Assembly (NCBI RefSeq): GCF_016862095.1
Contig: NZ_BOMH01000066.1
Location: 62,001-126,000 of the forward strand
DNA from: Actinoplanes cyaneus
GTDB taxonomy: Bacteria; Actinomycetota; Actinomycetes; Mycobacteriales; Micromonosporaceae
Reading direction: 5' to 3'
DNA: 64,000 nt
Under the pieces are notes generated by a model. The model saw only the letters and a program-made list of their open reading frames with translations, had not been told where the DNA came from and did no database searches. Within the stretch, counting starts at the first letter, position 1. Each line of letters starts with the position of its first letter. This document shows, piece after piece, positions 20,330 through 55,214 of the stretch. A program made the translations under genes and the position numbers.

Positions 20330-21844
20330 ATGACGGACGGACGGCGTGCGCTCGCCGAACAGGTGGCCGGTGATCATGCCCGGGGCGCGTTCTCCCGCCG
20401 CGAGGCGATCCGCAGACTGGGCGTCATCGGACTCACCGGCGCCGCGGCGACCGGTCTCACCGACGTGCTGACCCCCGCTCCGGCGGCAGCCCAGGCGGGC
20501 ACCACCGCCGCGCCGAAGCTCGACGACGAGTCGGAAATCCAGGGCAACATCCTGCGAGCCTTCGGCGGGCAGCACCACGCCTACCTCTTCGTGTCCTTCG
20601 GCAACAATCGGGCCCAGGCACGCACCTGGCTCACCACCGCCGCCGGCCGCGTCGACACCACCGCGGACGTGGCGGCAGCGCGAACCTCCGGGGCCGCGAT
20701 GATGGGTCTCGGACTCACCGCGACCGGCCTCGTCACGCTGCACCCCGAGGTGGCCGCGGACCTCGTGCCGTACGAGGCGTTCTGGCTCGGCCCGCTCGGC
20801 AACCGGCTCGACGACGCCGGCCGCCTCACCACCACGCCGACACTGCTCGGCGACGTCGGCGCGGCCCACCCCGCGAAGTGGGTCGTCGGCGGGCCCGGTC
20901 GCGCGCCGGTCGACGCGCTGCTCACCCTCGCCGCCGACGACGAGACGACGCTCGAGCAGCGCGTACAGAGGGAACGTCAGGCGCTCACCGGCGCCGGGCT
21001 CACCGTCCTGCACGAGCAGCGGGGCGCTGTGGTCCGCACCGCGAGCGGGCAGCGGGCCGAGCACTTCGGCTTCGCCGACGGCATCGCGCAGCCCACCGTC
21101 CGCGGCGCCCACGGCACACCGGAGGACATCGCGCCGGGCGAGTTCCTGCTCGGCTTCACCGGGGAACGGCGGCCGATGAATCTCGGACATCGCCCGGCCA
21201 CCGCGGCGTGGATGTGGGGCGGCTCGTTCCAGGTGTTCCGCCGGTTGCGGCAGGACGTGGCCGGCTGGTGGGCGAAGATGAACCAGCTCCGCGAGAACGG
21301 TCAGACCGCCGAGGACGTCGCCGCCCGCGCGATGGGACGCAAACTCGACGGGACGCCCCTGGGCCTGGACTTCGACAAAGACCCCGAAGGCAAGACCACT
21401 CCGCTGTACGCCCATGTCCGCAAGATGAATCCACGCGACGACACGGTGTTCCGGGACCGCAGCCACCGAATCCTGCGGCGCGGGATCCCATACGGGCCGG
21501 CGATGGACCGGTCCGCGCCGGACTCGCAGGACCGCGGGATGCTGTTCAACGCGTACATGGCCAGCATCGAGGACCAGTTCGAGTTCCTGCAGCGACGCTG
21601 GGCCAACGATCCGTCCGTCGCCTCGTCGACACTCACCAAGTCCGGGAAGAAGGCCGGACCGGACGGCTTCGACCCGGTCATCGGCGATGATCCTGCGGTG
21701 GCCGCGAAGCGCTTCGGGGCGGATGCCGTCAAGAAGGTGCCGTCGGCGGCGTTCGGCGGGTTCGTGACCACCACCGGGTCGGTCTACGCGTTCACGCCGA
21801 CGCGGGCCGCCCTCCGCCTGCTGTCCACCGACTCGAGCCTGTAG
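20330..21844 (+). CDS. Dyp-type heme peroxidase with Tat signal (DyP1)
   Basis: A 504-residue dye-decolourising peroxidase. The N-terminus holds a Tat-type signal (FSRREAIRRLGVIGLTGAAA, then a PAPAAAQA-type cleavage region near residue 55), so the folded heme enzyme is likely exported. The catalytic GxxDG motif is in EHFGFADGIAQPTVRG near residue 247, with its distal Asp. The proximal-His candidate is in YAHVRKMNPRDD, and RILRRGIPYG follows. The C-terminal SAAFGGFVTTTGSVYAF is shared with the paralogue at 27208. ATG at 20330 has GGGGAGG upstream. The next gene starts 11 bases later on the same strand. The natural substrate is unknown. Confidence 0.93.
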   Translation: MTDGRRALAEQVAGDHARGAFSRREAIRRLGVIGLTGAAATGLTDVLTPAPAAAQAGTTAAPKLDDESEIQGNILRAFGGQHHAYLFVSFGNNRAQARTWLTTAAGRVDTTADVAAARTSGAAMMGLGLTATGLVTLHPEVAADLVPYEAFWLGPLGNRLDDAGRLTTTPTLLGDVGAAHPAKWVVGGPGRAPVDALLTLAADDETTLEQRVQRERQALTGAGLTVLHEQRGAVVRTASGQRAEHFGFADGIAQPTVRGAHGTPEDIAPGEFLLGFTGERRPMNLGHRPATAAWMWGGSFQVFRRLRQDVAGWWAKMNQLRENGQTAEDVAARAMGRKLDGTPLGLDFDKDPEGKTTPLYAHVRKMNPRDDTVFRDRSHRILRRGIPYGPAMDRSAPDSQDRGMLFNAYMASIEDQFEFLQRRWANDPSVASSTLTKSGKKAGPDGFDPVIGDDPAVAAKRFGADAVKKVPSAAFGGFVTTTGSVYAFTPTRAALRLLSTDSSL

Positions 21845-21855
21845 GGAGAGCAGCG

Positions 21856-22458
21856 ATGACTGGTGTCGGTGTGAGTGACGCGTTCTTCGAGTTGGAGGGC
21901 GCCTGTGTGCATTCGATTCGCTTCATCTTCGCGGCGCAGGTCGACTATCCGTACGCCGCAGCCCGCCTGGCCGATGACAACCCGCCGGAGTCGCTGTTCC
22001 GCCGGGTGCAGGCCGCCTCGGCGCCACCGGCCCGGAGCGGGAAACCCTGGCAGACCGGGCTGACACTGAACGGCGCGGCGTTCGACCCGTCGGCTCCGCT
22101 CGACCACTACAACGACGTGAACTTCGTGACTGGGATCGACAACCTCGACGCGCCGTCGCCGGAGACAATTGTCCTGGATCACTGGTTCGAGATCCCGCGA
22201 GCTCCCCGGACCGTAGCCTGGTCCTGGGACGAGCCGCGACGGTACCTGCTCTCGTTCCCGTACTGGCAGCCCATCAGCGGCCCCGGCGACACCGCCTCGC
22301 AGAACGTCGACTACTCGGCGGTGCTCCGGCTCAACTGGACGAAGCCGCCGGCGTCCTCCTGGGTCGCGGTCAGCTTCGACGCCTTCTGGCCGAGCGAGCG
22401 CGACAGCGCCGAAGTGCTCATCCCGTTGCACGCCTGCGACAGCCTCTGCCCCCGCTGA
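21856..22458 (+). CDS. DyP-associated protein of unknown function, paralogue 1
   Basis: A 200-residue protein without signal peptide or membrane segment. I do not recognise a family. It is clearly paralogous to the product of 22511-23119; shared blocks are FEL-GAC-H-RF near the start, W-Q-GLT, PETIVLD-W-IP, RYLL-YWQP, AVSFDAFWPSERDSAEVLIP and a terminal C-D-x-x-C-P. The conserved GAC-H motif and the two C-terminal Cys suggest a metal or disulfide site. ATG at 21856 follows GGGAGAGCAGCG. It is co-transcribed with DyP1 (11-bp gap) and ends at a strong shared terminator. It probably assists or accompanies the peroxidase. Confidence 0.8.
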   Translation: MTGVGVSDAFFELEGACVHSIRFIFAAQVDYPYAAARLADDNPPESLFRRVQAASAPPARSGKPWQTGLTLNGAAFDPSAPLDHYNDVNFVTGIDNLDAPSPETIVLDHWFEIPRAPRTVAWSWDEPRRYLLSFPYWQPISGPGDTASQNVDYSAVLRLNWTKPPASSWVAVSFDAFWPSERDSAEVLIPLHACDSLCPR

Positions 22459-22471
22459 CCCCGGCAAATGA

Positions 22472-22500
22472 AGCCGCCGCCCGAGATCCGGGCGGCGGCT
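22472..22500. terminator. bidirectional terminator hairpin between the two paralogues
   Basis: AGCCGCCGCCCG (22472-22483), a five-base loop and CGGGCGGCGGCT (22489-22500) form a perfect 12-bp stem. It lies between two convergent stops, 14 and 11 bases from each. Confidence 0.85.
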
Positions 22501-22510
22501 CCGTCGCTTC

Positions 22511-23119
22511 TCAGCTGCTCGAAGGGCAGTGCTCGTCGCACTCCCCGAGCGGAATCAGCAGGTCCGCGCTGTCCCGCTCCGGCGGCCAGAACGCATCAAA
22601 GCTGACCGCGATCCAGTCGTCGGCCGGCGGGCGGTCGAAGTCCAGCCGGTACGTCGCGTAGTACTGCAGCTCTTTCGTCACGCTCTGCTCGCCCGCCGGA
22701 ACCGGGTTCCAGTACTGCACGGCAAGCACATAACGATCATCACCCGAGCTGGAGAACTCCATCGTCGCCTGTTGCCCTGGGATACTGATCCATCGGTCGA
22801 GTACGATCCTCTCCGGATCAGGCAGGTCCAGTGAGGGCGTACCCTCAGTGATCTGCACCTCCGCGAGGCGGCGGGGAAGCTCGCTCGGCTCGAACGGCTT
22901 GTCCTCCACGGTCAAACCGTTCTGCCAGGCCTCGCCGTCGCGGGTCGGCGGCGGGGAAACGACCTGCAGCCGTCGATACAGCGCCGGAGCTGGATTGGTC
23001 GTCGACAGGTCGACCTTGGCATATGGGCGGTCGAGAGGAGCCCCCACCGCGAACCGGAGGGCGTGGTTGCACGCACCGATCAACTCGAAGGCCGCCTCGC
23101 TGGCCGCGATACCAGTCAT
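22511..23119 (-). CDS. DyP-associated protein of unknown function, paralogue 2
   Basis: A 202-residue cytosolic-looking protein, paralogous to the product of 21856-22458. It keeps the same blocks: AFELIGACNHALRF, WQNGLTVEDKPFEPSELP, PERIVLDRWISIPG, DRYVLAVQYWNPVP, WIAVSFDAFWPPERDSADLL and the tail GECDEHCPSSS. ATG at 23119 is chosen because it gives the same N-terminal length as paralogue 1; the open frame continues upstream without conservation. It is divergent from the cyclase gene (84 bp) and faces paralogue 1 across a terminator. In the inferred ancestral order it followed DyP2, as paralogue 1 follows DyP1. Confidence 0.8.
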   Translation of the reverse strand: MTGIAASEAAFELIGACNHALRFAVGAPLDRPYAKVDLSTTNPAPALYRRLQVVSPPPTRDGEAWQNGLTVEDKPFEPSELPRRLAEVQITEGTPSLDLPDPERIVLDRWISIPGQQATMEFSSSGDDRYVLAVQYWNPVPAGEQSVTKELQYYATYRLDFDRPPADDWIAVSFDAFWPPERDSADLLIPLGECDEHCPSSS

Positions 23120-23203
23120 TTCTCCGCATCCCCCAGGCTGAACTGCAAACTCACCGACGACCGGATGATCCGACGTCAAGACCGAAGGGTGGCCATACCG
23201 GGC

Positions 23204-26200
23204 ATGGCCGATGATCCCTCCCGTCCCAGCGCCCAGTCCGCGGATCATTTGACCGCGACCTGGCGGTCTTACCTGCCAGAGCATGCCATCGATCTACTCA
23301 GGACCGTTGAAACTGTCGGCAATCCGCCGATGATCCAAGACGATGACGCGGTAGTCCTCTTCGCCGATGTCGCCGGGTTCACTGCCATGGCCGAAAGTCT
23401 CGCGGGGTCCGGCAGTTATGGCACCGAACGCCTTACCTCGGTGATCAATCGCTGGTTCGCACTCACAGCTGAGGCCATCACGGATGCTGGCGGTAGCGTC
23501 GTGGACTTCGCCGGCGACGCCCTGGTCGGTATGTTCCGGTATTCGACCGACTCGGCGGCTGCAGTAGCCCGGCGGGCGATCCACTGCGCGGAACTCATTC
23601 GGCAAGCGACTTCATCGGTCGCTCCCGTTCCTACCCCGAACGGCCGACGAGCCCTCGAGATCCGCGTCGGCTTGGCGGCCGGCCCACTGCGTCTGATGAT
23701 CCTTGGGGACCCTGCCATCCGGCTGCAGCATCTGGTCGCAGGACCCGCGCTGGATCGTTCGGTGCAAGCTCTGCATCGGGCGGACCGCGGGGAGATCGTC
23801 GTTGATGACGTGCTGTTGGAGATGGCCGAGGCGCAAGTGCACCCCTTGTTGGTGGCGCCGCAGTCCCCGGTCGCCGATCTGGAGAAACTGCTCACGCCAT
23901 TCCTGCATCCCGCGATCCGGGCGCGGCTGCGGTCGGGGCGGAATGAGTTGGTCAACGAGCACCGAAAAGTGAGTACCGCTTTCGTCCGTCTCCCCGACCT
24001 GTCCTTGGACGACCATCGGACGACCGACGCACTACAGCGCTTTCTTGCTGCCGGCGTGGGTGTGATAAGTCGGTATGGCGGTCACCTTCGTCACCTGATG
24101 GCAGACGACAAGGGCATCGTGCTGGTGGCTGTCTTCGGCACACCGGTCAGCCACGAAGACGACGAAGAGCGGGCAATCCGCTGCTGCCTCGAACTACTTG
24201 CGTTGCAGGGCGGGCCCTACCGCGGCGGCGTGACCACCGGCCAGGTCTTCTGCGGCGAGGTAGGGTCGGACATCCGCCGGGAGTACGCGGTGGTAGGCGA
24301 CAGCGTGAATCTCGCTGCGCGTCTCATGCAAGCAGCGCCGCCCGGGCACCTTCTCATCGATCAGAACACGTACAATCGAGTACGCGACGTCGTACTCGAC
24401 GTGCGTCCAGCAGCCGTCAGCGCCAAAGGTAAGGCAAGCCCTGTACCGGTATGGATAGTGCACGAGGCACGAGAGATCGGGCCGGCTCCTGAATCGATAC
24501 CTGATCAGGGCCCGCTGGTCGGCCGCACGGCGGAGATGCGACTTCTGAAAGCGTTCGCACAGCACGTACAGTCCGGCCGTGGGCAACTGGTATGGCTGCA
24601 CGGTGAAGCCGGCATCGGAAAAACCCGGCTTGCCGACGAGGCATGCCGAATCGCCCGGGAGCTTGGATTCGCTCAATTCATCGGCGGTGCCCGATCCCAA
24701 GGCCGCAGCACCAGCTACCTCCTCTGGCGTCCGATCTGGCGAGAGCTACTCAGAATAGACAGAGACGCTTCCATCGAGGCGCAACTGTCATCGCTCACTG
24801 AGCGAGTCGCCGCTTATGACGGTTCAGGCCAGCGAACGCCGCTTCTCGCCGCCCTGGTCAACCTGCCAATGCCCGATACTGAGCTGACGGCACAACTCGA
24901 GCCCGCCGGACGCGAGGAATTACTCCGTTCCACGCTGCTCGCGTGTCTACGCGACCATGCATCGGCTGGGCCTTTGATCCTGCGCTTGGAGGACTGTCAC
25001 TGGATTGACCCCGCTTCATCAGCGTTGCTGGAGTATCTCGTTCAGAACATCGCGGACCTACCAGTGCTGGTCGTAGCGACCTCACGGGAGCCGATGCCCG
25101 TCCGATTGACCAGCCGATCGCATCTCGTCGATCTGCGGCTGGATCAGATGACCCGCGAAGACGCCGAACAACTCGCCTCCCTTCGCTTCCGTGAACGCTA
25201 CGGTCAGGCAAGTCAGGTTGCCCCCGAGGTCCTGCGGCAGATTTCCGAGCAGGCCGGCGGAAACGCTTTCTACATCGAAGAACTCGTCAGCTACCTGCAC
25301 GGCCGGGGAGTCGACCCGGGAGACCCTCGCGCCCTCGCCACGTTGCGAGTACCCGACAGCCTTCAGCGGTTGGTCATGGCTCGCATCGACGAACTCAGTG
25401 ACGACGAGAAGGCAACCATCAAGGTCGCCAGCGTGATCGGGCGGCGTTTCCAGCCGCCGTGGATCACGTCGGCATATCCGGCTGCCGGAACGATCAAGCA
25501 GGTAGCCGACCACTTAGATCGCCTACAGGCCCTGGACCTGACTCTGCGAGTGCCAGGCGAGGCTGAGGTGGAGTACGAGTTCAAGCATCCGGTCACGCAA
25601 GATGCCGCATACCAGAGCATCACCTACGACACGCGGGCTGCTCTACATGAACGCATCGGACAATTCATCGAGCAAGTCTATTCCGACCGGCTTCCTCAGT
25701 ATGTCGATGTACTGGCACATCACTACGCACGGACGGAACGCAGCGACAAGCAGCGGGTGTGGTATCGAGCCGCCGGAGATCGCGCCAAGATGATCTTCGC
25801 CAACGAAACCGCGACTTATTACTACGGATTGCTACTCCCACTACTGCCAGCGGCAGAAGGCGCGGAACTTCACGTCGAGATCGGCGCTGTCAACCAGCAC
25901 ACCGGGCAGTGGACTGAGGCTGAAGATCACTACCGACAGGCGATGCAACTTGCACGAGCGAATGATCGTCTCGACGTTTTGGCCAGCGCCCAACGGCAGC
26001 TCGGAGATCTTCTAACATACACCCGTTCCGATGATGAACCAGTCACCTGGCTGCAACGGGCTCTAACCCAATTCGAGCGACTCAACGACGTCCAAGGCCA
26101 GTGCCGGACCATGGACCGAATCACTTTTGCTCTCTATCGCCAAGGATCGTACACGGAGGCTTTCGAGATGGCTCAGCGCCATCTTTCGATGGCTACCGAA

Positions 26201-27202
26201 ATCGGCGATCTTGCCGCGAGAAGCGCGGCTCTCGGGCACATCGGGTTGGTGTATCTGAATACGGGACACCCGGACAGCGCGCAGGAGTACCTACGGAAGG
26301 CTTTGGCCACGGCGGAGGAAGCTGGCGACAGGCAAAGTACGCTGATTCTGGCAGTCAACCTAGGCCTGGCTCTGATGCGCAGCGCAGACCATGCCCAGTC
26401 GATTGCTTCTTACAGATATGCACTGGAGGTAGCGCGCGAAATCGGAGCCGGGCACAATGCCACCATCGCCGTCGGGAACATGGGAGAAATCTATCGCTAC
26501 GAGGGTGATTTCGAGCGGGCACGGACCTGCGCGCTCCACGCACTCAGAGTTGGTGCCGAGTTAGGCGACCTCCTGATGGTGGCAGACCAATTTTCGAATC
26601 TCGGCGCGATCGCCGAGGCCAAAGACAATACTGCGGAGGCCCAGCACCTATTCGAACGGGCGATCGAGTTGGCGCGTCAACTCAACGCTCCCTACTATCT
26701 TTGCGATTGGCTACACCGCCTGGCTCGCCTACACCTGGAAACGAATCAGCCAACGGAGGCCGACAGGCTCAATGCCGAGGCATTGAAGATCGCTGAGGAA
26801 CAGGAACAACGAGACGTCCAAGTCAGTGCATCGCTCTTGTCGATCCGGCTACGAGTCCGTGACAATTCCTTGGATCGGCACACAGCCATCAAATCTCTGC
26901 GCCAGGCCATGCAGGAGTGGAACGAGCCCCACGAGGTTGCTGCCCTTTTGGACGCGGTGCGCGAACTCGATCCAGGCGACGAGGAGGCCCGGATCACGGC
27001 CGCCGAGATCTACCGCACCCTGTATGAACGTGCCCCGAGTATCGAATACCGCCGCGCATACCATCGCCTGACCGGCAAGCTACTTCCTCTTGGGCCACCA
27101 TTGCCGGAGCTCCCCGACTGGATCGCCGCGGAGGGCGGTGCCGACTTGGAGAACCTGCTTCAGCGGATTGACCGCTCGGCGCAGAAGCCCCGAGCGGTCT
27201 GA
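23204..27202 (+). CDS. double-cyclase-domain / P-loop ATPase / TPR signalling protein
   Basis: A 1332-residue protein. Domain C1 (about 40-200) has class III cyclase metal Asps at 55 (FADVAGFTAMAE) and 105 (FAGDALVGMF) but no Asn-Arg pair. Domain C2 (about 255-425) lacks the first Asp (FVRLPDLS) but has the transition-state Asn369 and Arg373 in DSVNLAARL. Together they could form one composite active site. An AAA/STAND ATPase follows (Walker A GEAGIGKT at 467-474, LRLEDCHWID near 595, sensor-like RVPDSLQRLVMARID). The remainder (about 890-1290) is TPR-like repeats such as GHIGLVYLNTGHPDSAQEYL. No membrane segment is seen. Base composition is visibly less GC-rich than both neighbours, suggesting recent acquisition. 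ATG 23204 is preferred; GTG 23189 is possible. Confidence 0.85.
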   Translation: MADDPSRPSAQSADHLTATWRSYLPEHAIDLLRTVETVGNPPMIQDDDAVVLFADVAGFTAMAESLAGSGSYGTERLTSVINRWFALTAEAITDAGGSVVDFAGDALVGMFRYSTDSAAAVARRAIHCAELIRQATSSVAPVPTPNGRRALEIRVGLAAGPLRLMILGDPAIRLQHLVAGPALDRSVQALHRADRGEIVVDDVLLEMAEAQVHPLLVAPQSPVADLEKLLTPFLHPAIRARLRSGRNELVNEHRKVSTAFVRLPDLSLDDHRTTDALQRFLAAGVGVISRYGGHLRHLMADDKGIVLVAVFGTPVSHEDDEERAIRCCLELLALQGGPYRGGVTTGQVFCGEVGSDIRREYAVVGDSVNLAARLMQAAPPGHLLIDQNTYNRVRDVVLDVRPAAVSAKGKASPVPVWIVHEAREIGPAPESIPDQGPLVGRTAEMRLLKAFAQHVQSGRGQLVWLHGEAGIGKTRLADEACRIARELGFAQFIGGARSQGRSTSYLLWRPIWRELLRIDRDASIEAQLSSLTERVAAYDGSGQRTPLLAALVNLPMPDTELTAQLEPAGREELLRSTLLACLRDHASAGPLILRLEDCHWIDPASSALLEYLVQNIADLPVLVVATSREPMPVRLTSRSHLVDLRLDQMTREDAEQLASLRFRERYGQASQVAPEVLRQISEQAGGNAFYIEELVSYLHGRGVDPGDPRALATLRVPDSLQRLVMARIDELSDDEKATIKVASVIGRRFQPPWITSAYPAAGTIKQVADHLDRLQALDLTLRVPGEAEVEYEFKHPVTQDAAYQSITYDTRAALHERIGQFIEQVYSDRLPQYVDVLAHHYARTERSDKQRVWYRAAGDRAKMIFANETATYYYGLLLPLLPAAEGAELHVEIGAVNQHTGQWTEAEDHYRQAMQLARANDRLDVLASAQRQLGDLLTYTRSDDEPVTWLQRALTQFERLNDVQGQCRTMDRITFALYRQGSYTEAFEMAQRHLSMATEIGDLAARSAALGHIGLVYLNTGHPDSAQEYLRKALATAEEAGDRQSTLILAVNLGLALMRSADHAQSIASYRYALEVAREIGAGHNATIAVGNMGEIYRYEGDFERARTCALHALRVGAELGDLLMVADQFSNLGAIAEAKDNTAEAQHLFERAIELARQLNAPYYLCDWLHRLARLHLETNQPTEADRLNAEALKIAEEQEQRDVQVSASLLSIRLRVRDNSLDRHTAIKSLRQAMQEWNEPHEVAALLDAVRELDPGDEEARITAAEIYRTLYERAPSIEYRRAYHRLTGKLLPLGPPLPELPDWIAAEGGADLENLLQRIDRSAQKPRAV

Positions 27203-27207
27203 GACCG

Positions 27208-28602
27208 TCAGCCGCCGACGATGGTGTTGCCGGCGAGGAGGTGGAGGGTGCGGAGGGACGGGGCGAAGGCGTACACCGCGCCGGTCGTGGTGACGAAGCC
27301 GCCGAAGCCGGCGGCCGGGATGGCCTGGACCACGTCGGGGGCCAGGGTTTCGGAGGCGATCTGTGAGCTCGCGCCGAGGACCGGGTCGAGGCCGTCGACG
27401 CCGGGCGCCGAGCGGCCGTACGCGGCGAGGGTGGAGGCGGGGAAACCGGGGTTGGTCGCCCACCGGCGCTGCACGTATTCGAACTGGTCTTCGATGCTGG
27501 CCATGTAGGCGTTGAACAGCAGGCCGCGTTCCTGCCCGTCGTCGGCCTGGCCGCGGGGCAGGGGCGAGCCGAACGGGATGCCGCGGCGCAGCATCTTGTG
27601 GCCGCGGTCGCGGAAGACGCCGTCCTCGCGCGGGTTGACCTTGCGGATGTGCGCGTACCGCGGGGTGCGGGTGCCGTCGTCGTCGCCGTGGTACGTGAAC
27701 GCGTTCAGCTCGTTGTCGGGTGCGGACGCGGCGAGCGGGCGTCCGTCGAGGTGCCGGCCGAGCGCTCGGGCGGCGGCGTCGTCAGGGTTGTCGTCGAGCG
27801 TCGCCATGTGGTCCCACCAGCCGGCCACGTTCTGCCGGAGCCGGCGGAACACCTGGAAGGAGCCGTGCCGCATCCACGGCGCCGGGGTCGGGCGCGGCGT
27901 CCAGGACGGCGGCCGCCGCTCCCCCGGGTAGCCGAGGACGAACTCGCCGGCGGCGATGACCGCGGCGCCGGGCCGGACGGTGTCGGGGAAGCCGCGGACG
28001 CCGGGCTGCGAGATGCCGTCGGCGAAGCCGAAGTGTTCGATGCGTTTGCCGCCGTCGTTGCGCAGCACGTCGCCCCACTGGACGAGCAGGACTTCGAGGC
28101 CGTGCCGGGCGGCCTCGCGGACCTCGCTCTCGACCGCGTCCTGAAGCGTGTCCGCCTCGTGTGCGGCGACGGTGAGCAGCGCGTCGACCGGACGGCCGGG
28201 GCCGCCGATCACCCACTGTGACGGGTCGCCGGGGCCGAGGTCGCCGAGCAGCGCGGGCGCGGTGGTGACCGCGCCGTCGTCGTCGAGGCGGGTGCCGAGT
28301 GGTCCCTGCCAGAACGCGGCGTGGCCGACCAGGTCGCCGGAGACCTCGGGGTGCAGCAGGGCCAGGCCGGACGCGGTGAAGCCGACGTTCAGCAGGGCGA
28401 GCCGCGGCGTGTCGCCCGGCGCGGGACGGACCTGGGGAACGTCGTCGTGGCCGCTGGCGCGGGTGGCGGCGCCGGTCAGCCAGGTGCGCGCGCCGCCCCG
28501 GTCGCTGCGGAACGACAGGAAGAGAAATGCCTGGTGGTCGCCCCGGAACGGCCGCAGGACGTTGCCCTGGATCTGGGATGTGTCGGACAGCGGGGATGCC
28601 AT
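27208..28602 (-). CDS. Dyp-type heme peroxidase without signal peptide (DyP2)
   Basis: A 464-residue DyP peroxidase paralogous to DyP1 along its length (SQIQGNVLRPFRGDHQAFLF, EHFGFADGISQPGVRG with the GxxDG motif near residue 190, GSFQVFRRLRQNVAGWW, YAHIRKVNPREDGVFRDRG with the proximal-His candidate, GLLFNAYMASIEDQFEYVQR). Unlike DyP1 there is no Tat leader; the protein starts almost directly at the peroxidase domain, so it is expected to stay in the cytoplasm. ATG at 28602 has AGGAGACG upstream. The stop is only five bases from the stop of the convergent cyclase gene. Confidence 0.92.
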   Translation of the reverse strand: MASPLSDTSQIQGNVLRPFRGDHQAFLFLSFRSDRGGARTWLTGAATRASGHDDVPQVRPAPGDTPRLALLNVGFTASGLALLHPEVSGDLVGHAAFWQGPLGTRLDDDGAVTTAPALLGDLGPGDPSQWVIGGPGRPVDALLTVAAHEADTLQDAVESEVREAARHGLEVLLVQWGDVLRNDGGKRIEHFGFADGISQPGVRGFPDTVRPGAAVIAAGEFVLGYPGERRPPSWTPRPTPAPWMRHGSFQVFRRLRQNVAGWWDHMATLDDNPDDAAARALGRHLDGRPLAASAPDNELNAFTYHGDDDGTRTPRYAHIRKVNPREDGVFRDRGHKMLRRGIPFGSPLPRGQADDGQERGLLFNAYMASIEDQFEYVQRRWATNPGFPASTLAAYGRSAPGVDGLDPVLGASSQIASETLAPDVVQAIPAAGFGGFVTTTGAVYAFAPSLRTLHLLAGNTIVGG

Positions 28603-53030: not shown

Positions 53031-55214
53031 ATGCCCCGGATCGTTCGCACGGTCGCCGGAACGCTGGCCGCGGTCCTGCTCACCGGTCTCGCGGCCAGCC
53101 CGTCCGCCGCTGACGTGCTCCCCTACCTCGACCCGTCCCTGCCGGTCGCCGACCGGGTCACCGACCTGCTCGGCCGGATGACGCCGGACGACAAGACCGG
53201 CCAGCTGGTGCAGGGTGAACGCGCCACCGCGGGCCCGGCCGACGTCACCTCGCTGCGGCTGGGCTCGGTGCTCTCCGGCGGCGGCTCCGCGCCCACCCCG
53301 AACACCCCGGCGGCCTGGGCCGACATGTACGACAGCTACCAGCGGGCCGCCCTGGCCACGCCACTGAAGATCCCGATGCTGTACGGGATCGACGCGGTCC
53401 ACGGCAACAACAACGTGGCGGGCGCGACGATCTTCCCGCACAACGTCGGGCTCGGCGCGACCCGCGATCCGGCCCTGGTGCAGCGGGTCGGCCAGATCAC
53501 CGCACAGGAGGTGACCGCCGCCGGGCAGGACTGGACGTTCGCGCCGTGCGTCTGTGTGGCCCGCGACGACCGGTGGGGCCGCACGTACGAGTCGTTCGGC
53601 GAGACGCCCGAGCTGGTCTCGTCGATGACCACGATCGTCACGGGGCTGCAGGACGAGGGCGTGCTGGCCACCGCGAAGCACTACCTCGGCGACGGCGGCA
53701 CCACCAACGGCGTCGACCAGGGCGACACCCAGCTCACCGAGGCGCAGCTGCGGGCGATCCACCTGCCCCCGTTCCGGGCCGCCGTCGAGCGCGGCGCCGG
53801 ATCGATCATGATCTCGTTCAACAGCGTCGGCGGGCAGAAGATGACGGCCAACCGCCACCTGATCATCGACGTGCTCAAGGGCGAGCTCGGCTTCACCGGG
53901 TTCACCGTGTCCGACTGGGCGGCGGTGGACCAGCTGGACGGGCGGCCCGGCTTCACCGCGGCCGAGGTCGCCGACGCGGTCAACGCCGGGCTGGACATGC
54001 TGATGGTGCCCGAGGACGTGAGCCGGTTCGTCGGCTACCTCCGCGCCGGCGTGCAGTCCGGGCAGATCCCGATGTCGCGGGTGGACGACGCGAACCGGCG
54101 GATCCTCACCAAGAAGTTCGAGCTCGGGCTCTTCGAGCACCCGTACGCCGACCGGTCCGGCATCGCGCAGATCGGCAGCGCCGAGCACCGGGCGGTCGCC
54201 CGGCAGGCCGTCCGCGAGTCGCAGGTGCTGCTCAAGAACGACGGCATCCTGCCGCTGGCACCCTCCGCGAAGATCTTCGTGGCCGGCAAGAGCGCCGACG
54301 ACCTGGGCAACCAGAGCGGCGGCTGGACGATGAGCTGGCAGGGTGCGAGCGGCGCCACGATCAGCGGAACGTCGATCCTGGCCGGGCTGCGGGCCGCCGC
54401 GAGCTCGGTGACCTACAGCCGGGACGGTTCCGGGATCGACGGCAGCTACACGGCCGCGATCGCGGTGGTCGGCGAGACCCCGTACGCCGAGGGCAAGGGC
54501 GACCGCTCGACGCTGCCCGGCCTGGACGCCGACGATCGCGCGGTGCTGTCCCGGCTGCGCGCGGCCGGCGTCCCGGTGATCACCGTGCTCGTCTCCGGCC
54601 GCCCGCTGGACGTCGCCGCCGACCTGCCCGGCTGGAACGCCCTGCTCGCCGCGTGGCTGCCCGGCAGCGAGGGCGCGGGCGTGGCCGACGTGCTGCTCGG
54701 CGCCTACGCCCCCACCGGGAAACTGCCGGTGACCTGGCCACAGTCCGCCGGCCAGGAGCCGATCAACGACGGGGACGGCAAAACCCCGCTCTTCCCGTAC
54801 GGCCATGGCCTGACCTTCACCACGAACGATCCCGATCCGACACCGTCCACGTCCACCACCCCGTCACCGTCACCCTCCACCTCGCCGAGTCCCGTGCCGG
54901 CCGGGTGCCGGGTCGCCTACAGCACCAGCGACTGGTCGACCGGTTTCACCGGCACGGTGGGCGTCACCAACACCGGCGCCACCGCGATCCCCTCGTGGAA
55001 GCTGACCTGGACCTGGCCCGCGGCGCAGACGGTGACCCAGTCGTGGTCGGCCCGGGTCACCCAGTCCGGCGCCACGGTCACCGCCGTGGGCGAGACGTGG
55101 AACGCCGGACTCGCGCCGGGCGCCACGCTCAGCTTCGGTTTCAACGCCACGCACAGCGGCGCCAATCCGCGTCCGGCGGCGTTCGCCCTCAACGGCACGC
55201 CGTGCACCACCTGA
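53031..55214 (+). CDS. secreted GH3 beta-glucosidase with C-terminal CBM2
   Basis: A 727-residue secreted enzyme. The signal peptide ends near SPSAA (about residue 27). The GH3 N-domain has IPMLYGIDAVHGNNNVAGAT, VLATAKHYLGDGGTTNGVDQ and the nucleophile Asp295 in FTGFTVSDWAAVDQL. The C-domain has VLLKNDGILPLAPSAKIFVA and LPVTWPQSAGQEP. A Pro/Ser/Thr linker (about 605-623) leads to a family 2 cellulose-binding module (WSTGFTGTVGVTNTGATAIP, SWKLTWTWPAAQTVTQSW). It should release glucose from cello-oligosaccharides while bound to cellulose. ATG at 53031 is preferred over 53019 because GGGAG lies five bases upstream. It is controlled by the CebR-type operator at 52993. Confidence 0.93.
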   Translation: MPRIVRTVAGTLAAVLLTGLAASPSAADVLPYLDPSLPVADRVTDLLGRMTPDDKTGQLVQGERATAGPADVTSLRLGSVLSGGGSAPTPNTPAAWADMYDSYQRAALATPLKIPMLYGIDAVHGNNNVAGATIFPHNVGLGATRDPALVQRVGQITAQEVTAAGQDWTFAPCVCVARDDRWGRTYESFGETPELVSSMTTIVTGLQDEGVLATAKHYLGDGGTTNGVDQGDTQLTEAQLRAIHLPPFRAAVERGAGSIMISFNSVGGQKMTANRHLIIDVLKGELGFTGFTVSDWAAVDQLDGRPGFTAAEVADAVNAGLDMLMVPEDVSRFVGYLRAGVQSGQIPMSRVDDANRRILTKKFELGLFEHPYADRSGIAQIGSAEHRAVARQAVRESQVLLKNDGILPLAPSAKIFVAGKSADDLGNQSGGWTMSWQGASGATISGTSILAGLRAAASSVTYSRDGSGIDGSYTAAIAVVGETPYAEGKGDRSTLPGLDADDRAVLSRLRAAGVPVITVLVSGRPLDVAADLPGWNALLAAWLPGSEGAGVADVLLGAYAPTGKLPVTWPQSAGQEPINDGDGKTPLFPYGHGLTFTTNDPDPTPSTSTTPSPSPSTSPSPVPAGCRVAYSTSDWSTGFTGTVGVTNTGATAIPSWKLTWTWPAAQTVTQSWSARVTQSGATVTAVGETWNAGLAPGATLSFGFNATHSGANPRPAAFALNGTPCTT

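Follow-up and report, generated by a model that had tools for sequence, protein, structure and literature searches.

A 64,000-nucleotide stretch of the Actinoplanes cyaneus genome (assembly GCF_016862095.1, contig NZ_BOMH01000066.1, positions 62,001 to 126,000 of the forward strand; hereafter the window, whose own numbering is used below) carries what is probably an old three-gene module. It combines a DyP-type haem peroxidase, a partner protein of about 200 residues (P) and a cyclase resembling soluble adenylyl cyclase (sAC), hereafter CYC, and here lies beside a second peroxidase-partner pair that lacks a cyclase. The three genes are linked; P and the peroxidase quite likely act as a pair, and a signalling role of CYC for that pair is put forward more tentatively. 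The enzymes belong to familiar types, while Pfam and NCBIfam contain no model for the P family; among the titles listed by literature searches on DyP with adenylate cyclase or cyclic AMP, none concerns such a module. The module links class V DyPs and an sAC-like cyclase with one 200-residue protein, in three defined genes.

Organization of the locus

On the plus strand, the first peroxidase gene, DyP1 (20330-21844), is followed after only 11 bp by P1 (21856-22458), which encodes a 200-residue protein outside every Pfam and NCBIfam family. On the minus strand lie the paralogous DyP2 (27208-28602; 53% identity over 463 residues) and P2 (22511-23119; 202 residues, 46% identity to P1 over 199 residues). 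CYC (23204-27202, start approximate) sits between these two on the plus strand and encodes two class III cyclase domains, an AAA_16 ATPase and a TPR region. CYC and P2 are divergent, and both of their promoters are presumed to lie in the 84-bp region between them (23120-23203); the open frame of CYC extends back to position 23063, inside P2, and its true start is uncertain. CYC and DyP2 converge, with 5 bp from stop to stop. The P1 and P2 genes also converge, and the 52 bp between their stops (fold of -30.3 kcal/mol, z -4.8) contain a hairpin with a 12-bp perfect stem and a 5-base loop (22472-22500), a probable bidirectional terminator. Even though no T-run follows this hairpin, its perfect stem between the two stops makes the shared terminator proposed in the initial annotation a reasonable suggestion. 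Perfect hairpins are found at the equivalent place in locus L015 (9 bp) and, after a P1 remnant described below, in L016 (12 bp), and none was found there in L001. The gene order, strands and paralogy given in the initial annotation, as well as the location of the 4-kb cyclase/ATPase/TPR gene, which runs counter to the DyP2 and P2 genes that flank it, are confirmed by the open reading frames (ORFs), the Pfam and NCBIfam matches and the pairwise identities, to which can be added that CYC carries two cyclase domains.

Distribution and conserved order in Actinoplanes

The three genes were searched for in 67 Actinoplanes genomes, with thresholds of E <= 1e-60 for DyP and E <= 1e-100 for CYC, and with a P profile built at first from two sequences (P1 and P2) and later from a 14-row alignment. 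P was found in 21 of the 67 genomes and DyP of this type in the same 21, neither occurring alone at the thresholds used, which bears out the linkage between DyP and its 200-residue partner that the initial annotation had suggested looking for in other genomes. The probability of such agreement by chance would be about 8e-18 if the 67 genomes were independent, a figure to be taken as a guide only because the genomes are related. CYC is present in 20 of the 67, namely the P/DyP set minus G140. Absences rest on the best candidates of each genome, because first-look candidates were scored only in part: 2-15 per genome in the family, class and phylum searches, and up to 47 (P), 24 (DyP) and 9 (CYC) in the genus searches.

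When neighbourhoods were compared, DyP2-CYC-P2 was found with identical order and strands in 19 of the 21 carriers, and CYC sits between DyP2 and P2 in all 19 pairs that are visible whole. In G605 the set is split by contig ends, with pieces of DyP2 on a small contig. Spacing and composition were measured in 17 of the 19 three-gene loci (all but L060 and L063). With start codons chosen by rule, the divergent gap between P2 and CYC is 27-70 bp in 14 of the 16 measured loci other than that of the window, and the two starts overlap in the remaining 2. At the other end of CYC, its frame overlaps that of DyP2 tail-to-tail by 4 bp in 8 of the 17 loci (L020, L021, L057, L059, L061, L062, L064 and L066). 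The CYC gene of G595 counts one stop in the genome match and none in the translation used for alignment.

Trees of CYC, DyP2 and P2 from the 19 genomes have two main clades in common, one with 5 and one with 11 members; G152 and G595 pair up with CYC and DyP2 and not with P2. The trees do not include the sequences of G605, whose peroxidases are interrupted by contig ends and Ns and whose CYC is cut.

In 11 of the 23 loci searched, DyP2 is directly preceded by an asparagine-synthase-like gene of the same orientation (82-95% identity; e.g., L059:2183-4207), in most cases about 20-55 bp away (starts by rule); the two perhaps form one operon.

Occurrence outside the genus

A family-level search with the two-row P profile (15 candidates per genome) gave matches in 8 of 200 genomes, all of them Actinoplanes, and P had no match in plasmid records. 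A phylum-level search with CYC gave 6 matches at E <= 1e-100 among 296 genomes, that of the window included. Two of the genomes with matches, G241 and G212, belong to another class-level lineage, of which three genomes were surveyed, with P in two of the three. G241 has a P homologue, CYC (51% identity) and DyP in the same layout as in Actinoplanes. Its P scores E 3.5e-6 with a profile made from Actinoplanes sequences only, among 5206 ORFs (a set with repeats, since the window is counted twice and some loci overlap), and the next ORF outside G212 and the known P sequences reaches only E 0.084. In G212, P (E 3e-11) and CYC (45% identity) are accompanied by an animal-type haem peroxidase (PF03098, E 4.5e-21), which follows P in the same orientation and of which only the first part is seen as the contig ends inside it; the 13-kb contig has no DyP profile match.

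More distant CYC relatives (34-39% identity) had neither P nor DyP in the stretches examined, but in two of them, G216 and G467, only 146 and 289 bp separate the start of CYC from the end of the contig, and a P gene on that side would be invisible. The P search itself had missed the P of G241, which was recovered via CYC, and its recall beyond Actinoplanes is hence limited; within that limit, every DyP-P pair seen outside the genus was accompanied by CYC. A P match in G499 (E 0.008, 28 positions, internal stop) was discarded as chance.

The variable DyP1-P1 pair

The DyP1-P1 cassette is present in 6 of the 21 carriers (G000, G605, G174, G140, G618 and G596), with a gap of 9-38 bp between DyP1 and P and with one to three copies of P; those of G140, G596 and G618 have two or three, which are 74-95.5% identical within a cassette. 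G617 carries DyP2-CYC-P2 at the same BCAT locus as the window and has no DyP1-P1. In G158, a stretch resembling the last 28 residues of P1 (89% identity) is joined to a broken BCAT gene and followed by a hairpin (L016:9305-9667), and this remnant is a deletion scar of DyP1-P1. Given the synteny and trees across 19 genomes on the one hand and the presence of DyP1-P1 in 6 of 21 on the other, CYC is the stable component of the locus and DyP1-P1 the variable one.

DyP1-P1 appears to have arisen as an early joint duplicate of the peroxidase-partner pair. The DyP tree groups DyP1 (support 93/90) and DyP2 (86/82) separately and the P tree recovers a P1 group (87/90), with supports that are moderate and all under the tool's star threshold, with long outgroups and, for DyP, rooting on one long outgroup. 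The DyP of G615 has DyP1 as best BLAST hit, but its position and the tree place it with DyP2.

Composition and origin of the cyclase gene

The initial annotation had described the locus as two mirror-image DyP-P cassettes, one of which had received CYC as an insert. CYC indeed separates DyP2 from P2 and has the reverse orientation to both, and it is indeed less GC-rich than its surroundings: its GC content at third codon positions (GC3), 0.686, is the lowest of the 36 ORFs of the window that have at least 150 residues and pass a filter on GC by codon position. Furthermore, the GC3 of CYC is below that of DyP2 in 17 of the 17 Actinoplanes loci measured, by 0.01 to 0.26. Nevertheless, a recent insertion is extremely improbable and was rejected on synteny, trees and occurrence, since CYC is in place in 19 of 19 whole DyP2-P2 pairs, shares its main tree clades with DyP2 and P2 and has the same layout in another class-level lineage. 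Low GC as a sign of foreign origin was likewise rejected, as orthologues in the same place vary widely by species: over the 17 loci, CYC ranges from 0.618 to 0.740 in GC and from 0.69 to 0.96 in GC3, and at the same BCAT locus in G617 its GC3 is 0.867, against 0.686 in the window. Two loci outside the genus reach 0.752 and 0.782 in GC, and 0.975 and 0.985 in GC3. In G241, CYC and DyP have nearly equal GC (0.752 and 0.753) and the GC3 relationship is the reverse of that in Actinoplanes (0.975 against 0.957). The low GC3 is read as a property of this long regulatory gene. What the initial annotation had named as evidence against an insertion, a cyclase gene long present in the same place and with matching composition, is thus found as regards position; composition does not match in Actinoplanes, while GC is equal in G241.

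A very old insertion is a different proposal, in which the locus began as a DyP-P operon that received CYC before the split between Actinoplanes and the lineage of G241, and the DyP1-P1 cassette keeps the founding form. The shared orientation of DyP2 and P2 on either side of CYC would fit this, as would the CYC-less G140. However, loss of CYC from a duplicate would explain the pattern equally well, the only CYC-less DyP-P pairs seen are in Actinoplanes (with the limited recall mentioned above), and G212 combines P and CYC with a different peroxidase; such an ancient event is somewhat unlikely.

The cyclase

In class III cyclases, two metal-binding Asp are provided by the C1 domain, and Lys, Asn and Arg by C2. 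CYC is a tandem of two different cyclase domains, C1 and C2, whose sequences predict one composite active site as in sAC. All 24 aligned sequences keep both metal-binding Asp in C1 and, in C2, the Lys and the Arg, and the best match in the PDB is human ADCY10 (E 1.2e-27), across C1 and C2. Human sAC (ADCY10) has the same arrangement and the same residues, the comparison being limited to the catalytic half since the matched chains have 470-475 residues. A P-loop ATPase and a TPR region lie behind the cyclase domains of CYC. The bicarbonate-binding site of sAC includes a Lys before the FAGDAL motif of C1. This residue is an Asp in 19 of the 24 CYC sequences, that of the window included, Lys in 3, Ser in 1 and Thr in 1; in this respect the window CYC differs from sAC. 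We know of no ligand established for the ATPase/TPR half of sAC-like cyclases. Full-length human sAC is described as containing a P-loop together with a domain predicted to bind haem (PMC12802110); a P-loop is present in CYC as well. The TOMM kinase/cyclase family (TIGR03903) aligns from the second cyclase domain to the TPR region, with 209.3 bits against a cut-off of 705.75, and none of the 25 Pfam families listed is a kinase; CYC therefore falls outside it.

The peroxidases

DyP peroxidases use a catalytic Asp in a GXXDG motif, a proximal His and a distal Arg. Both window proteins are DyP-type peroxidases by TIGR01413 (122.1 bits, E 3e-35 for DyP1; 109.4 bits, E 2.1e-31 for DyP2; cut-off 100.5), and in Pfam they match Dyp_perox_C above and DyP_N below the cut-off. 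Across 25 aligned DyPs, G605 copies not included, the proximal His and distal Arg are kept in 25 and the catalytic Asp in 22, and DyP1 and DyP2 are predicted to be haem peroxidases from these motifs. The nearest PDB chain to DyP2, the one of the two that was searched, is an ancestral D-type DyP. The three catalytic motifs named above are likewise those of the class V (former C/D) DyPs SaDyP1 and SaDyP2 of Streptomyces avermitilis, a pair described as having an unknown role and no homologue whose physiological substrate or function was known (PMC8395514). The window DyPs, assigned to this class by nearest structure only, differ from them in their linkage to P and CYC.

By eye, the N-terminus of DyP1 in the window (20330-20500; SRREAIRRLG ... 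AQA) resembles a twin-arginine translocation (Tat) signal, as do those of DyP1 in G174 and G605, the start being unsure in G140; it is the only one of the two window DyPs to do so. No signal-like N-terminus was seen by eye in DyP1 of G618 and G596 or in the DyP2 and P sequences inspected. A review ties Tat-like N-termini to class I DyPs (PMC8197335), a trait by which DyP1 departs from class V. An exported class V DyP with a signal-less partner might carry that partner along.

The same review describes DyPs with dedicated partner genes, in EfeUOB and in encapsulin-DyP pairs (PMC8197335), which resemble the DyP-P pair to that extent. On TIGR01412, however, DyP1 and DyP2 reach 54.3 and 52.8 bits against a cut-off of 428, unlike EfeB-type enzymes, and neither P1 nor P2 has a hit in Pfam or NCBIfam at E <= 1, to an encapsulin shell protein or otherwise.

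The partner protein

The P profile finds nothing convincing in the PDB (best E 0.25). Conserved Arg, Trp and Pro positions characterize the family, and most aligned Actinoplanes sequences also have Cys17, His19 and two C-terminal Cys, positions only partly kept in G212 and G241. Low-confidence models of P are mostly beta and are not relied on here. P closely follows DyP1 in the same orientation and is found there as one, two or three copies, which suggests that it binds and serves the peroxidase as a subunit, a substrate or a haem or assembly factor. Multiple copies would fit a protein needed in excess over the enzyme, be it a subunit, a substrate or a scavenger. In G212, where P and CYC have an animal-type peroxidase as neighbour, the combination suggests that P may recognize not one fold but the chemistry of peroxidases or what it yields.

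Proposed function and alternatives

In the proposed module, the peroxidase and P would act together, the ATPase-TPR half of CYC would read the state of the peroxidase, of P or of a substrate such as haem, peroxide or an oxidised product, and CYC would respond with the synthesis of a cyclic nucleotide. The starts of P2 and CYC lie back-to-back over a very short region, from which the two are probably co-regulated. More doubtful is a broader version, a bacterial sAC-type cyclase dedicated to haem peroxidases: P would be a general partner of peroxidases from both the DyP and the animal-type superfamily, which are unrelated, and CYC would sense haem, peroxide or the state of the peroxidase-P pair and convert it into a cyclic-nucleotide signal.

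Several observations weigh against the module as proposed. G140 has DyP-P-P and no CYC, and distant CYC relatives in G399, G678 and G691 (34-38% identity) have neither P nor DyP within the 13-14 kb examined. DyP2 and CYC are convergent and do not form one operon. Within the 11-genome clade the trees branch differently, in one case with good support on both sides: CYC joins G596 and G610 (100/100) while DyP2 joins G610, G196 and G611 (95/92); the module genes have therefore not always been inherited together, which points to some exchange. The catalytic Asp is replaced by Glu in 3 of the 25 DyPs, and the catalytic Asn of C2 by Ile in 4 of the 24 CYC sequences (G164, G596, G607 and G610), in which cyclase activity may be reduced or lost. 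One P copy of G596 is without its first ~11 residues, in frame, and may be damaged. Contact between P and the peroxidase is proposed from gene linkage, and AlphaFold models of P are of very low confidence (mean pLDDT 30.4 and 33.0). Finally, a scan upstream of DyP2 (8 regions), DyP1 (6), the AsnB-DyP2 unit (11) and P2/CYC (17) found 5 Crp-like sites (GTG-N6/N8-CAC) where single-base shuffles predict about 7.2. Upstream of DyP1 alone there are 2 against 0.86 expected, which 63 of 300 shuffles reach. Transcriptional control via Crp thus has no support.

The gene set could also be seen as an anti-phage defence system, with a STAND-type sensor and nucleotide cyclase commanding an oxidative effector. 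The patchy spread (21 of 67 genomes) is in line with this, and Pycsar cyclase models align with the cyclase region (best E 3.8e-16), as can nevertheless be expected of many class III cyclase domains. In a PADLOC scan for effectors confined to P and DyP, neither had a match at E <= 0.01, so that no known Pycsar effector was recognized, and the ten neighbours tested, from three loci besides that of the window, have functions in metabolism, transport and signalling; a defence role is accordingly improbable. A comparably low probability attaches to an oxidative attack on plant polymers, in which the peroxidases would belong to a lignocellulose locus. Lignin degradation is the function most often attributed to DyPs (PMC8197335), and in 5 of 23 loci (L059:10417-11604, L021, L058, L064 and L065) P2 has as its neighbour a Cip1-like lyase with a cellulose-binding CBM2 domain. 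The lyase is not beside P2 in the other 18, however, and may be an ordinary neighbour, and the apparent want of a signal on DyP2 and P also argues against this reading. A separate stretch resembling a carbohydrate-binding module (CBM) is found elsewhere in the window, at positions 54900-55208.

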